From Vibrio astriarenae (lineage in GTDB: Bacteria; Pseudomonadota; Gammaproteobacteria; Enterobacterales; Vibrionaceae), in assembly GCF_010587385.1 (NCBI RefSeq), contig NZ_CP047475.1, positions 558,001 to 622,000 of the forward strand: a stretch of DNA of 64,000 nt, given 5' to 3'. Position numbers and translations under genes: made by a program. Shown here in pieces: positions 42,147 to 50,464 of the stretch. A model generated the notes under the pieces. The model was not told where the DNA came from. It did no database searches and worked only from the letters and a program-made list of their open reading frames with translations. Numbering within the stretch: position 1 is the stretch's first letter; the number at the start of each line of letters is the position of its first letter.

Positions 42147-42623
42147 CTAGTGGTTGAGGTTCGCCATATAGTCTGTGATCAGTCCACTAGGTAATCCATC
42201 CACGAGTAACTCATCCATTCTTAATATTCTGGGCTTGAGTGTGTTGGCGACACTTTCTGCGTGTTGATAAAGGCTATTTTTGTTGGCGTGGTAGCCAGTA
42301 GGAAAGGCCTCTATCTGCCAACTGACTCTTATTCCGTTTGCCATCCATTTCGGTGTCGGCTCACCTTGTAAGCTATCGCACAAGGTCACCACGATATCGG
42401 GCTCGAAGGCAATGCGCTCATCCCACGAGTGAGCGTGATGGTGAGGGATGGGAAGTTGATTATCTTCAAGATAGGACTTCACCAAGGGGTTGATGTTGCC
42501 GCTGGGCTCAACGCCCCCACTGGCAATGCTAAAGCGATTATTTGGTAAGTAATGTTGCGCGAGCGATTCAGCAATGACGCTACGACCAGCATTGTGCCGA
42601 CAGACAAACAGAACTTTATACAT
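42147..42623 (-). CDS. ArsC-like / low-molecular-weight phosphatase-fold protein, incomplete active site
   Basis: 158 aa with the phosphate loop C8-RHNAGR-S (CX5R) at the N-terminus, as in low-molecular-weight protein tyrosine phosphatases and thioredoxin-type arsenate reductases (VLFVCxxNxxRS). C82 in VVTLCDSLQGE aligns with the resolving cysteine of those reductases. The third cysteine (about 89) is missing, and the general-acid Asp of the usual DDPxG segment is replaced in SWQIEAFPTG. Either the active site is unusual or the protein is not a normal arsenate reductase. No other ars gene is nearby. It lies downstream of the CstA-family gene, past a terminator. Confidence 0.7.
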   Translation of the reverse strand: MYKVLFVCRHNAGRSVIAESLAQHYLPNNRFSIASGGVEPSGNINPLVKSYLEDNQLPIPHHHAHSWDERIAFEPDIVVTLCDSLQGEPTPKWMANGIRVSWQIEAFPTGYHANKNSLYQHAESVANTLKPRILRMDELLVDGLPSGLITDYMANLNH

Positions 42624-42745: not shown

Positions 42746-44230
42746 CTAGGCTGTTTTTGTATCAGCCTCAACCTTCTCTTCATCGGCAAGGTCATCTTCA
42801 CCTTTACCTTTAGAGCGTTTGATAACCAGTGCAGTGACACCAAGGGAGAACACCATACCAGCAATAGTTGAGATGTTCATTGGTAGACCGAAGCCTAGAG
42901 TGCTGTTATTTAGAATAAAGGTGACAACAACAGTCGTCATGAACATAGCGGGAAGCGTCGTTACCCAGTGCAGCTTGTTGTGGCGCAGTAGGTAGGCAGA
43001 AGCTGTCCAAAGCATCATTACCGCTGTGGTTTGGTTAGCGAAACCGAAGTAACGCCAGATAACACCGAAATCAACTTGAGTCAGGATGCCGCCGATAATA
43101 AACAGTGGAATTGCCATTAGTAGACGGTTGCGCAGAGAGCGCTGCTCCATGTTGAAGTATTCAGCCAGAATTAAGCGACTTGAACGGAACGCGGTATCAC
43201 CGGATGTGATTGGGAGAATAACAACACCAAGGAAAGCGATAATGCCACCGAATACACCAAGCAGACCAAACGATGCGCTGTAGACAACATTACCCGGACC
43301 ACCGTTCGCAACGGCTTCACTCAATAGCTCAATTGAGCCGAAGAAAGACAGAGCAAGCGCACACCAGATTAGGGCGATGATACCTTCACCAATCATTGCA
43401 CCGTAGAAGACGAAGCGACCGTTCTTTTCGTTCTCCATACAACGTGCCATCAAAGGTGATTGAGTTGCGTGGAAGCCAGAAATTGCACCACAAGCGATGG
43501 TGATAAATAGCGCAGGCCAGATAGGCATGTCGTTCGGGTTCAAGTTAGTGAACATGTCGCTCACTTGGAAATCACCCATCACAGTGTGTTCGCTAGATAG
43601 GCCAACGGCAGTGATAAGACCAACGGACATAAAGATCAATAGCGCGCCGAATAGAGGGTAGAAGCGGCCAATGATCTTATCGACTGGAACGATGGTTGCG
43701 ATGATGTAGTAGCCAAAGATAATGGCAACCATGGTGCCCATCGAAACAGTAAGACCTGTTTGATCGTTGATTAGGTTAGTGATCATGCCAGCAGGTGCTG
43801 AAACGAAAACGACACCAACAAGAAGCAGTAGGACAATGGCAAAAATGTTCATAAAATGTTTGGCGCCATTGCCTAAGTAACGACCAGTGATGGTTGGCAC
43901 TGATGCACCACCATTACGCACAGATAGCATGCCAGAGAAGTAGTCGTGAACAGCACCGGCAAAGATACAGCCAACGACAATCCACAACATAGCAGCAGGG
44001 CCATAAAGTGCACCCATGATAGGGCCGAAGATTGGACCAACGCCTGCAATGTTCAATAGCTGAACTAGGTAGACTTTCTTGGTTGACATCGGAACATAGT
44101 CAACGCCATCGGCTTTAGTGTGAGCAGGGGTTTGACGTTTTTCGTTGATGCCAAAAATCTTCTCGATGAACGTGCCATAGAAAAAATAGCCGGCTAAGAG
44201 TAGGGCGACACAGGTCAGAAACCACAACAT
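42746..44230 (-). CDS. btsU: CstA-family transporter, probable pyruvate transporter BtsU
   Basis: Polytopic inner-membrane protein of 494 aa, the short CstA type (E. coli CstA and BtsT are about 700 aa). The start is ATG 44230 with AAGGA eight bases before. CstA features are STKKVYLVQLLNIAGVGPIFGPIMGALYG (residues about 49-77, split), GAVHDYFSGMLSVRNGG, ITSGDTAFRSSRL and about 13-15 spans; the tail is charged (EDDLADEEKVEAD). CstA members carry peptides or pyruvate. A btsSR two-component pair 4 kb away and five BtsR-like operator repeats upstream make pyruvate the best guess. The symbol follows the name I recall from Vibrio campbellii. Confidence 0.82.
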   Translation of the reverse strand: MLWFLTCVALLLAGYFFYGTFIEKIFGINEKRQTPAHTKADGVDYVPMSTKKVYLVQLLNIAGVGPIFGPIMGALYGPAAMLWIVVGCIFAGAVHDYFSGMLSVRNGGASVPTITGRYLGNGAKHFMNIFAIVLLLLVGVVFVSAPAGMITNLINDQTGLTVSMGTMVAIIFGYYIIATIVPVDKIIGRFYPLFGALLIFMSVGLITAVGLSSEHTVMGDFQVSDMFTNLNPNDMPIWPALFITIACGAISGFHATQSPLMARCMENEKNGRFVFYGAMIGEGIIALIWCALALSFFGSIELLSEAVANGGPGNVVYSASFGLLGVFGGIIAFLGVVILPITSGDTAFRSSRLILAEYFNMEQRSLRNRLLMAIPLFIIGGILTQVDFGVIWRYFGFANQTTAVMMLWTASAYLLRHNKLHWVTTLPAMFMTTVVVTFILNNSTLGFGLPMNISTIAGMVFSLGVTALVIKRSKGKGEDDLADEEKVEADTKTA

Positions 44231-44263: not shown

Positions 44264-44291
44264 GTTATAGCGTGCATACTACGCCCATCAA
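44264..44291 (-). promoter_or_regulatory. Promoter of the CstA-family gene
   Basis: On the reverse strand TTGATG (44291-44286) and TATAAC (44269-44264) are separated by 16 bp. The predicted start at about 44257 puts the nearest operator repeat at about -63. Confidence 0.55.
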
Positions 44292-44316
44292 TATCGATAT
44301 TCTTGCGCTGCTTAAG

Positions 44317-44404
44317 TCAGTGGCAGTATCAATAATTAAGTGGTAGTGATAGGAATTAAGTGGTTTTTACTGTTAGTGAGCGGCTATTATCTACAGTGAG
44401 TGGC
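44317..44404 (-). promoter_or_regulatory. Five-copy, 20-bp-spaced LytTR (BtsR-like) operator array
   Basis: Read on the reverse strand, 8-bp units occur at 44317 (GCCACTGA), 44337 (ACCACTTA), 44357 (ACCACTTA), 44377 (GCCGCTCA) and 44397 (GCCACTCA). Each starts exactly 20 bp from the last, and all fit RCCRCTNA. From memory, the E. coli BtsR (YehT) consensus is ACC[G/A]CT[C/T]A in direct repeat. The flanking positions 44297 and 44417 do not match, so the array has five units. Confidence 0.78.
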
Positions 44405-44440
44405 ACTTGTTGATCATCAATGAAAAGAAAGGAATAGACA

Positions 44441-44782
44441 ATGAACAAGCGATTGATCGCTGGCTTAGTGGTCATTTTAGCTGGCTGTGCATCTTCAGCC
44501 GATGACCTGATTGCAAAAGGGGATTGGTATCAAGTTGGCTATCAAGAAGGCTTACGAGGCAATGTTTCGCGCTCAATGGCAGATTTGAGTCAATACAGCA
44601 ATGCGGAGCCAGCAGAGTATGACAAAGGGTATTTGTCAGGTATCGCTGAATACTGCAATCCGAATGTTGCATATCAGATTGGTCTATCAGGTCAATACTA
44701 CGAAGGCGTGTGTGAAAACACGGAAGAGGGACAGAAGTTTAGAATGGAGTGGCAGCGCGGGTGGATGGAATACAACAAGTAG
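44441..44782 (+). CDS. DUF2799 lipoprotein
   Basis: 113 aa with a lipoprotein signal peptide: positively charged start MNKR, hydrophobic core, and lipobox LAGC with the lipidated cysteine at 16. The mature part carries repeated GYxEG / KGYLSG / QIGLSGQYYEGVC segments typical of the DUF2799 family, whose role is unknown. AAAGGAA precedes the ATG. It is divergent from the CstA-family gene across the operator array; whether the array also affects it is unknown. Confidence 0.85.
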   Translation: MNKRLIAGLVVILAGCASSADDLIAKGDWYQVGYQEGLRGNVSRSMADLSQYSNAEPAEYDKGYLSGIAEYCNPNVAYQIGLSGQYYEGVCENTEEGQKFRMEWQRGWMEYNK

Positions 44783-47966: not shown

Positions 47967-48683
47967 TTAGTGGAACCCCAGTTTCTCTTTGAGGTTTTTT
48001 AGATAGCGGCGGCTAACGGGGACCGTATGGCCGCTGCAGGTGACTATTTCGGCTAATCCGTTTTCGAGTAGCTTGATCTCTTTGATTGATTTTATATTGA
48101 TCAAATATTGGCGATGACAACGCAGCAGAGAGGTTTTTTCCTCAAGCACTTTCAAGGTAAGCTGCGACGTGGCAAGCTGCTCATGAGTTTGAACTTGTAC
48201 ACCACTAATGTCGCTGTAAGCAAACTGCACCTCTTCAGCAGGGATGATCATAATGCGATTGAGTCCGATACACGGCACATGAATCAACTGTTCTGGTGCC
48301 AGTTGGCTGAGGTTGACTTGCTTAGTGTGAACCTTGCCAAGGCGACATATCGTCTTTTCAAGGCGCTGTGGGTCGACGGGTTTTAGCAGATAATCAAAGG
48401 CGTTGTCCTCAAAAGCTTGGATTGCGTACTGATCATACGCAGTGACAAAGACCACCTTGGGCATGGTGTCAGGATCAAGCATACCAAGCAGCTCGATACC
48501 GGTAATTTGTGGCATCTGGATATCAAGAAATACGACATCCGGTTTCAACTGATTAATCTTTTTGAGTCCCTCAATCGCATTACTTGCGGTGTCGATCACT
48601 CGGATTTTGTTCGACTCTTCAAGAAGCTCTGATAGCTCCTCACGAGCCAATAGCTCATCATCAATTACTAAAGCGGAAAGCAT
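47967..48683 (-). CDS. btsR: LytTR-family response regulator BtsR (YehT-like)
   Basis: 238 aa: receiver domain (about 1-120) with the acidic pocket D8-D9, phosphoacceptor D54 and K101, then a LytTR DNA-binding domain (about 137-238, ending VPVSRRYLKNLKEKLGF). It pairs with the histidine kinase gene 8 bp upstream. In E. coli BtsR binds direct repeats upstream of the pyruvate transporter gene btsT; here similar repeats lie upstream of the CstA-family gene at 44230. The kinase match to BtsS is strong, so the BtsR name is well supported. Confidence 0.9.
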   Translation of the reverse strand: MLSALVIDDELLAREELSELLEESNKIRVIDTASNAIEGLKKINQLKPDVVFLDIQMPQITGIELLGMLDPDTMPKVVFVTAYDQYAIQAFEDNAFDYLLKPVDPQRLEKTICRLGKVHTKQVNLSQLAPEQLIHVPCIGLNRIMIIPAEEVQFAYSDISGVQVQTHEQLATSQLTLKVLEEKTSLLRCHRQYLINIKSIKEIKLLENGLAEIVTCSGHTVPVSRRYLKNLKEKLGFH

Positions 48684-48691
48684 GGCTGCCC

Positions 48692-50368
48692 TTATATGGT
48701 CATCTTACCGGGAATGATAAAGCTCATTCGTGTGTACTGGTTAACTTTAACATCGGTCGTGAGTTTTGCCGCGGGTCCAAATTGATTAACGAGACGCTTG
48801 TCGACAATTTGCATGCCAAGCCCGAGGTGTTTCTTATCAGGAACGCGATAGCTACCCGCATTATCTTCCACCACTATTTTGTAGCCACAGCTCATCGGCT
48901 CACTGTAGATATTGAGTTGACCATCTTCTAGCAGGTTGGAAATACCATGTTTAATCGCGTTTTCTACTAACGGTTGCAGGGTGAAACTAGGCACCTGTCG
49001 CTCAAGCAGTTCCTCAGCAATATTGATATGAACCGCGAGGCGATCAGAAAAGCGAGCTTGCTCAATCGTCAAATAGGCGCTCACATGTGCGAGCTCTTCT
49101 CTCAGCGTCACCGTTTCAATATTCTGCTTTAAGTTGCTGCGGAAAAATTGCGATAGGTGCTGAATCAGGCTGCGCGCTTTCGTTGGGTCTTTGCGTATCA
49201 CAGCACTAATCGTATTGAGGGCATTGAACAGGAAATGAGGGTTAATTTGGGCTTGTAGTAGTTTTATCTCTGCTTGAGACAGTAGGTTCTGTTTCTGTTG
49301 ATATTCACCGTACAAGATTTGGCTTGAAAGCAACTGTGCAATACCCTGTGCCATGGACATATTGACGGTCGAGAAGAGCTTACGTTTCGGCTCATAGAGC
49401 TTGATGGTACCCACCACGCGGTCTCCAGCACGCAATGGGATGATCAACGCTGAACCCAGCCTACATGATGGGGAGATAGAGCACTGGTAAGGCTGTTCTC
49501 TGCCGTTAAGGTAGATGATACGATTCTGTGACATTGAATCTAGGGTACTTTGTGAGGAGATGGGTCTTCCTGGAACATGATGATCTTTTCCCATGCCCAC
49601 AAAAGCCAAAATCTTATGATTATCCGTGATTGCTACGGCACCAACGCTGGTTTCCTCAAAGATGATGTTTGCGATCTTTTCCGCATTGTGGATCTCGAAC
49701 CCTGACGCCATAATGCCCACCGAGCGTTCGGCGATTCGCAATGCTCGTCGCGAAAACATGGCGGAATACTCGTCGAAAATGGTTTTTCTGTCTTGCAAGA
49801 TACTCATAAACAGTGCCGCACCGATGGAATTGGCAATGATCATCGGTGCCGCGATATCTGAAACCAGTGCATAGGCTTGGCTAAATGGTTTAGCTATCAT
49901 CAAAATAAGCACCATTTGGGCAATTTCGGCGAACAAAGTGACGCAAAAGACCATCAATGGATTAAATATCTGGTCAGTGCGGTTGTTACGCACAAAGTAG
50001 AGGTGAACCAAGCCGCCAATCAGTCCCTCTGTCGTGGTTGAAACTGCGCAAGCAAGGTCAGTAAAGCCACCCAAGCTGTAACGGTGCAGCCCACCAGTCA
50101 AACCAACAAAAAAACCCACCACTGGGCCACCGAACAACCCTCCCATTACAGCGCCAATAGCTCGAGTGTTGGCTATCGCATCATTAATTTGTAGACCAAA
50201 GTAGGTACCGAGAATACAAAATGAAGAAAAGATAAAGTAGACGCTAATTCGGTGACTTAGGTGGTCGGAAGCACCAAGCAAGGGCCTGAATATGGGGGTT
50301 TTACTCAACATGTATGCCAGCATCAAATAGACACACATTTGTTGTAGTAGTGAAATAATCAGATCCAT
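48692..50368 (-). CDS. btsS: Sensor histidine kinase BtsS (LytS/YehU type)
   Basis: High-affinity pyruvate sensor in E. coli. I place the start at ATG 50368 (MDLIISLLQQMCVYLMLAYMLSKTP), aligned with the E. coli start, giving 558 aa; a GTG at 50461 would add 31 residues without support. It has a 5TM LytS-YhcK region (about 1-190) with NTRAIGAVMGGLFGGPVVG, a GAF domain (about 220-350), and a HisKA_7 part with the phosphoacceptor H378 in INPHFLFNALNT. HATPase motifs LVENAIKHG and LGLGMQIVDKRL complete it. It is divergent from aroF. Confidence 0.92.
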   Translation of the reverse strand: MDLIISLLQQMCVYLMLAYMLSKTPIFRPLLGASDHLSHRISVYFIFSSFCILGTYFGLQINDAIANTRAIGAVMGGLFGGPVVGFFVGLTGGLHRYSLGGFTDLACAVSTTTEGLIGGLVHLYFVRNNRTDQIFNPLMVFCVTLFAEIAQMVLILMIAKPFSQAYALVSDIAAPMIIANSIGAALFMSILQDRKTIFDEYSAMFSRRALRIAERSVGIMASGFEIHNAEKIANIIFEETSVGAVAITDNHKILAFVGMGKDHHVPGRPISSQSTLDSMSQNRIIYLNGREQPYQCSISPSCRLGSALIIPLRAGDRVVGTIKLYEPKRKLFSTVNMSMAQGIAQLLSSQILYGEYQQKQNLLSQAEIKLLQAQINPHFLFNALNTISAVIRKDPTKARSLIQHLSQFFRSNLKQNIETVTLREELAHVSAYLTIEQARFSDRLAVHINIAEELLERQVPSFTLQPLVENAIKHGISNLLEDGQLNIYSEPMSCGYKIVVEDNAGSYRVPDKKHLGLGMQIVDKRLVNQFGPAAKLTTDVKVNQYTRMSFIIPGKMTI

Positions 50369-50464
50369 TGGGCTATCCGTTCGGGCAAAGAGTGACCCTA
50401 AAGGGTAATCAATTTTGTGCTCAATGGGAGGGAAAAGGGTCTCAAAATAACAATATAACACGAG

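Follow-up and report, generated by a model that had tools for sequence, protein, structure and literature searches.

Upstream of a gene of the CstA family in Vibrio astriarenae, an eight-base sequence of the form RCCRCTNA is repeated five times on the minus strand, and every step from one copy to the next is exactly 20 bp (44317-44404). This raises the question of what reads such a regular array, which gene it serves, and whether the number five has any meaning. The repeats are found in the window (here and below, the whole stretch of DNA that was analysed, 64,000 nucleotides), where they occupy a 210-bp intergenic region between the divergent genes 42746-44230 and 44441-44782. We consider it very probable that the array is a promoter-anchored set of five head-to-tail operator units for BtsR, the response regulator of the BtsS/BtsR system that senses pyruvate, and that it activates the BtsU-type gene at 42746-44230. 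The features needed for the argument are listed here.

42746..44230, minus strand: BtsU-type CstA-family transporter, 494 aa, predicted pyruvate importer (PF02554)
44276..44281, minus strand: predicted -10 element TAGTAT, at +43 counted from where the proximal unit starts
44302..44309, minus strand: block at +15 to +22 from the proximal unit, AGCGCAAG, in the -35 position (from column frequencies in 80 promoters)
44317..44324, minus strand: unit 1 (promoter-proximal), GCCACTGA, predicted BtsR operator, on the same lattice as in related promoters
44337..44344, minus strand: unit 2, ACCACTTA, predicted BtsR operator
44357..44364, minus strand: unit 3, ACCACTTA (the same letters as unit 2), predicted BtsR operator
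44377..44384, minus strand: unit 4, GCCGCTCA, predicted BtsR operator
44397..44404, minus strand: unit 5 (distal), GCCACTCA, predicted BtsR operator, 36 bp short of the DUF2799 start codon (ATG)
44441-44782, plus strand: divergent DUF2799 lipoprotein gene, starting 36 bp past the distal unit
47967..48683, minus strand: btsR, response regulator of the LytTR type, predicted to read the array (NF008677)
48692..50368, minus strand: btsS, 5TM-LYT/GAF/histidine kinase, predicted pyruvate sensor (Pfam)

The transporter matches PF02554 well above threshold (8.5e-59, 200.1 bits with a cut-off of 27), and is 88% identical to the 494-residue protein of V. harveyi (L034) encoded directly before btsS-btsR. 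Import of pyruvate is predicted for it because it resembles the product of the V. harveyi/V. campbellii gene that adjoins btsSR. An assignment to the E. coli type of CstA was rejected, the score against the equivalog model NF011590 being 99.7 bits with a cut-off of 1188, and the protein is of the short BtsU type instead. The window BtsR scores 367 bits against the NCBIfam BtsR equivalog NF008677 (cut-off 246), and has both a receiver domain (PF00072) and a DNA-binding LytTR domain (PF04397), each above its cut-off. A search of the genome for the LytTR family found one protein, namely BtsR at 47967-48683. The btsS reading frame opens at a GTG at 50461, and alignment to E. coli favors the ATG at 50368. 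The pyruvate-site residues R72, R99, C110 and S113 of E. coli BtsS and the histidine H382, as named in the available text of PMC10653868 and PMC3875573, are all identical in the window BtsS (5/5), which is predicted to be a sensor of extracellular pyruvate. The btsSR pair is about 4 kb from the transporter, beside nagZ. Downstream of btsU, at 42147-42623, there is a gene resembling low-molecular-weight phosphatases and arsenate reductases; tblastn (E 1e-5) with this gene gave no match in the available flanks of 80 related loci, some of which are short.

An earlier note on this DNA had described five RCCRCTNA repeats, 20 bp apart, between 44317 and 44404, and all five are indeed there, on the minus strand. 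It had placed them at -63 to -143 from the gene start; counted from the ATG at 44230, the units start at -94, -114, -134, -154 and -174. It had also put all of them strictly on one face of the DNA, which by simple arithmetic is true only at about 10.0 bp per turn. At 10.5 bp per turn each 20-bp step gives a rotation of -34 degrees, amounting to -137 degrees over the five units, and the common face is lost.

The occurrence of RCCRCTNA was rejected as evidence when taken alone, since the window contains 32 copies where 30.9 are expected, much as in shuffled sequence. The remarkable feature is the phasing and not the frequency of the 8-mer. First-order resampling of the 210-bp intergenic region (200,000 draws) produced a chain of two in 3 draws and a chain of three in 0, and chance is no explanation for five units. 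Across the whole genome (4,799,333 bases) there are five exact pairs at 20 bp, four of them in the array and one standing alone on contig 2, and there is one exact pair at 21 bp, on contig 1. As a search for a further target of the regulator, made with exact RCCRCTNA pairs, each of the two spacings leads to one place outside the array. By eye, the surroundings of the lone pair on contig 2 were taken for coding sequence.

Species genomes were scanned once for relatives of the transporter, and 258 stretches were found to encode one. The best 80 of the 258 were kept, all from Vibrionaceae or Vibrionales by their titles, and together with the window these form a set of 81 promoters, in which the window groups by its transporter gene with V. 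aestivus, V. mexicanus and Vibrio sp. SCSIO 43135. Within 400 bp upstream of the gene, these 81 promoters (the best 80 of 258 plus the window) contain 378 unit matches on the gene strand and 1 on the opposite strand. Pairs on the same strand are spaced by 20 bp in 203 cases, by 21 bp in 17 and by 22 bp in 2, with further peaks at 40, 60, 80, 100 and 120 bp; there are no opposite-strand pairs of units in the 81 promoters. Shuffling the promoter set 200 times gave a mean of 0.01 pairs at 20 bp, and no exact phased pair occurs elsewhere in the 1,418,353 bases of flanks and window.

The length of the array is variable. The longest exact 20-bp chain among the 81 promoters is one unit in 8 of them, two in 8, three in 38, four in 11, five in 9, six in 2, seven in 3 and eight in 2. 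Scoring with a matrix gives no units in 1 promoter, two in 1, three in 18, four in 22, five in 24, six in 5, seven in 3, eight in 2, nine in 3 and ten in 2, where the counts of weak units are somewhat circular, the matrix having been trained on the same 81 promoters, and the longer counts rest on slots with one mismatch. Ten units, of which nine are exact, pass the threshold in V. harveyi (L034) and V. owensii (L029), where they run from -100 to -280. Degenerate slots are often a single letter away from the consensus and keep the register. The core carries 12.5-13.5 bits of information in slots 0-2 (numbered from the promoter) vs 9.5-10.7 bits in slots 3-5.

Close relatives differ in the number of units, and five is therefore not a conserved number. 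Between V. fortis (L046) and Vibrio sp. D404a (L058) the difference is exactly one 20-bp unit, and two adjacent units of V. fortis are near-identical; in the alignment L039 is without one 20-bp unit that is present in L029, L034, L038 and L043; and the tree sisters L038 and L080 have 9 and 4 units. The earlier note had named loss of units in relatives that keep the gene as evidence against its reading. The number of units does vary in this way, but at least two phased units are present in 81/81 promoters when one mismatch per unit is allowed, including the promoter that scored zero with the matrix (L073). Comparison of 66 pairs of close species on the same lattice, which are not independent of each other, shows differences at 46/1290 of the fixed core positions (five per unit; 3.6%) vs 618/3144 spacer positions (19.7%), so that the spacers diverge about five times faster. 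The whole-unit differences, taken with the contrast between core and spacer, indicate that units are gained and lost whole, with the register kept, while the spacers drift. Judged from sequence, the array is a conserved BtsR-type operator of variable length.

Shorter versions of the same operator are found elsewhere. The btsT promoter of E. coli K-12 (NC_000913.3, L178) contains GCCGCTCA, ACCGCTTA and ACCACTCA at -184, -164 and -143 from the annotated ATG, spaced by 20 and 21 bp. The E. coli BtsR site had been described in the earlier note as a pair, and this needs correction, as a third unit is present on the distal side, 20 bp further upstream than the second. The binding-site probe for YehT given in Table 1 of PMC4847170 spans all three units. 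In family f19, which contains E. coli-like BtsT, allowing one mismatch per unit gives a chain of three in 16/17 promoters and of four in 1/17; three exact units are present in 5/17, and the third unit often has one mismatch. The presence of three or four units in 17/17 suggests that the model operator, E. coli btsT, is a three-unit site. Promoters of family f27 have two units in 20/23, three in 2/23 and none in 1/23, and 23/24 of their spacings are 21 bp. Chains of two and three units are the rule in the other families sampled. The counts in E. coli, f19, f27 and Vibrionaceae thus show one and the same operator with two, three or many units.

These numbers bear on how many of the units matter. 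It is possible, though we think it the less probable case, that only the two or three proximal units are functional, and that the distal ones act as a buffer that raises the local concentration of BtsR or titrates it, with no cooperative filament being formed. The fall in core information beyond slot 2 is what such a buffer would lead one to expect, as are the 19/81 promoters with just two or three scored units and the usual two- and three-unit chains of other families. A loose reservoir would not need its distal units to hold orientation and a 20-bp register as far as 280 bp upstream, nor would it need close species to differ by exactly one 20-bp unit.

The array is also tied to the promoter. 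When positions are counted from where the proximal unit starts, a TANNNT hexamer is found at +43 in 74/80 Vibrionaceae promoters and at +42 in the other 6/80; this count omits L073, and includes L025 and L028 after a shift of two slots by hand. The column frequencies of the same 80 promoters show no TTGACA at the -35 position. In its place the relatives (L006-L085) have a conserved AGCGAATG-like block at +15 to +22, which is weak in the window (AGCGCAAG). The first part of this block resembles an inverted degenerate unit (TNAGYGGY). In the window, the proximal unit and the block in the -35 position both depart from the family consensus, and slot 0 has the highest 5'-flank information of all slots. 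A consensus promoter scan of the region gave a single weak site on the minus strand, which lies inside the array, and no site at the position of the predicted -10 element; this element was located by comparing promoters instead. If transcription is assumed to start 7 nt past the -10, the unit centres lie at -51.5, -71.5, -91.5, -111.5 and -131.5. With its fixed register to the -10 and no canonical -35, the promoter is laid out like one that depends on an activator adjoining RNA polymerase. Beyond the named set the hexamer is at +42/+43 in further promoters of f1 (8/8) and in those of f10 (8/12), f12 (6/8), f25 (13/16), f6 (5/7) and f13 (2/2). The register is not universal, because the hexamer is found there in only 4/17 promoters of f19 and 3/23 of f27, where it is mostly at +41 (15/23), and E. 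coli btsT has CAACAT where TANNNT is expected.

The following sequence of events is suggested by this layout and by the established work on BtsSR and LytTR regulators. Extracellular pyruvate would activate BtsS, which in turn would activate BtsR. A point against this second step is the statement in PMC5431176 that BtsS could not be autophosphorylated. One BtsR would then bind per unit, and BtsR on the proximal unit, centred at about -51 from the assumed start site, would be placed just upstream of RNA polymerase at a promoter with no -35. Most likely, BtsR molecules bound head to tail recruit RNA polymerase to the btsU promoter. By analogy with YpdB and CoxC, neighbouring BtsR molecules may load cooperatively along the lattice, so that with more units the same amount of active BtsR would give a higher occupancy and a sharper or longer response.

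In Vibrionaceae (L006-L085), btsSR was seen directly behind btsU in 33 loci, apparently as btsU-btsS-btsR, a layout that would give positive feedback on the sensor itself. In 44 loci btsSR is upstream of btsU, beside nagZ in most Vibrio and without nagZ in five Photobacterium, and in 3/80 btsR was not found in the available flank. The length of the array shows no link to gene order, the mean number of scored units being 4.8 in the 33 loci with btsSR downstream and 4.6 in the 44 with btsSR upstream.

Because the array stands between divergent genes, it could in principle be an operator common to the btsU and DUF2799 (44441) promoters. This is improbable, even though the distal unit ends just 36 bp before the DUF2799 ATG and a plus-strand TATTAT is present between units 4 and 5, so that a promoter for DUF2799 may overlap the array (region 44385-44440). 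Arrays occur with no DUF2799 match upstream, for example in Grimontia (L044, L045, L067) and Photobacterium (L063, L071, L072, L082, L085), and the orientation of the units and their fixed register both point to btsU. Shared control with DUF2799 is not claimed, since the distance from the distal unit to DUF2799 differs between species.

The identity of the regulator was approached by comparison across the order. Among 394 genomes, a relative of the transporter (E 1e-20) is present in 224 and BtsR (E 1e-30) in 198. Upstream stretches were picked by hand over families from the listed matches, not at random, to a total of 80 (60+20). A phased pair within 300 bp, with at most one mismatch in all, is present in 58/61 stretches from genomes with BtsR and 0/19 from those without, and the corresponding figures for opposite-strand phased pairs are 2/61 and 0/19. 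The 19 stretches without BtsR are those of families f9 and f3, which have no BtsR match at E 1e-30. As a control they carry the caveat that the f3/f9 transporters are more diverged (53-65% identity), although BtsR families at 63-68% do have units. All listed BtsT orthologues at 83% identity or more (40 promoters) were treated in the same way; a chain of at least two units, with at most one mismatch per unit, is present in 39/40, and the one without, G231, is the sole one of the 40 with no listed BtsR match. Pooling the two sets, for which the criteria were slightly different, phased units are found in 97/100 promoters from genomes with BtsR and in 0/20 from genomes without. Wholesale absence of the units thus goes with absence of BtsR, apart from three exceptions. 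These are G093, G047 and G190 (L117, L149, L197), which have BtsR in the genome and no phased units upstream of the transporter; in these BtsR may act elsewhere or use an altered motif.

The idea that a transcription factor other than BtsR reads the units is therefore very unlikely. Binding of BtsR in this genome is a prediction, and the three promoters without units in BtsR genomes would be accommodated by another factor, but the motif and its geometry are those of the E. coli BtsR (YehT) probe, one LytTR protein was found in the genome, and presence or absence of the units tracks BtsR. The earlier note had tied btsSR to the transporter, and this prediction draws support from the presence of a sole LytTR protein that passes the BtsR cut-off, from the units that track BtsR, from the retained residues of BtsS, and from a precedent with an E. 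coli reporter in V. harveyi. There, according to passages of PMC5552118, an E. coli yjiY (btsT) reporter behaves much as it does in E. coli; the same passages state that the E. coli promoter reporter failed only in S. marcescens and A. hydrophila. Finally, that the repeats are a neutral minisatellite produced by slippage is likewise very improbable, as the recent duplication or loss of a unit between L046 and L058 and the adjacent near-identical copies in V. fortis are set against spacers that diverge some five times faster than the fixed core positions, pairs on the same strand only, a single promoter register, and no phased units without BtsR.

BtsR thus remains the favored reader of the array, and the spacing of its units changes with their number. 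Spacings of 21 bp make up 28/42 in chains of two, 32/138 in chains of three, 15/60 in chains of four, 12/128 in chains of five and 2/85 in chains of eight to ten. This trend is not independent evidence, because the families differ in both traits. The preference of long arrays for 20 bp suggests a geometry set by contacts between proteins, or curved DNA, and not one face of straight B-DNA. As a tentative proposal, which we would rate as rather doubtful at present, the long BtsR arrays might form a solenoid-like LytTR nucleoprotein, in which receiver-LytTR monomers, polymerised head to tail on a 20.0-bp lattice, curve or wrap the upstream DNA as has been proposed for RemA, and in which the number of units would be a dial for threshold or steepness that evolution can turn. 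Such a structure would explain why long arrays have 20 bp (about 10 bp per turn) and two-unit sites mostly 21 bp.

Among the closest known systems is BtsS/BtsR-btsT of E. coli. As there, the CstA-family gene of the window is preceded by RCCRCTNA-type units in direct repeat, with a spacing in the range of 20-21 bp, and the two systems share the regulator family, the head-to-tail arrangement on the transporter strand and the pyruvate-site residues of BtsS. They differ in the operator, which has three units at 20 and 21 bp in E. coli and five, all at 20 bp, in the window, and in the transporter, since E. coli BtsT has 716 aa and is 28% identical over 350 aa to that of the window. Another is that of V. 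harveyi, with its 494-aa transporter (L034), 88% identical to the window's and followed directly by btsS and btsR. For V. campbellii, the passages of PMC10653868 describe one sensing system and one transporter, BtsU. Unlike in this system, btsSR of the window is not directly behind the transporter but some 4 kb off beside nagZ.

Among other LytTR regulators, operators are described as pairs, with triplets exceptional, in the passages of PMC4847170 and PMC11347149. CoxC and RcoM1 are such exceptions: the same passages of PMC11347149 give three direct repeats of 8 bp, separated by 12-13-bp spacers in RcoM1 and recurring every 18-21 bp in CoxC, and for CoxC all three are required for efficient binding. 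Both have three repeats and concern regulation by CO, and CoxC represses by overlapping a -35 box, whereas BtsR arrays have up to about ten units and stand upstream of a promoter that is presumably activated. YpdB (PyrR) on yhjX is again a LytTR protein that responds to pyruvate, and its phosphomimetic form is reported in PMC4847170 (passages) to load the A and B sites sequentially and cooperatively; it has two sites and a different motif. BldC forms a head-to-tail oligomer covering direct repeats of varying number (PMC5859096, text passages), but has an unrelated MerR-like fold. RemA has a LytTR-related domain, with proposed wrapping of DNA, and a footprint of 7-bp protections and 3-bp gaps, which is a 10-bp period; as it takes a pair of RemA subunits to superimpose on one LytTR domain of AgrA (footprint and superposition from passages of PMC8481266), simple arithmetic gives 20 bp per LytTR equivalent. 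RemA forms a ring and has poorly conserved repeats, whereas BtsR is a receiver-LytTR protein with strong unit motifs. In the literature listings and passages searched, BtsR arrays longer than two or three units are not described. The regulator, the sensor, the transporter and the unit are all of known kinds, and what would be new is the variable array of up to ten units in strict register. For one regulator and one type of promoter, nature offers arrays that range from two to about ten units, always in a fixed register, across many species whose genomes are sequenced. They lend themselves to testing how the response of a two-component system depends on the number of operators and on their helical phasing.
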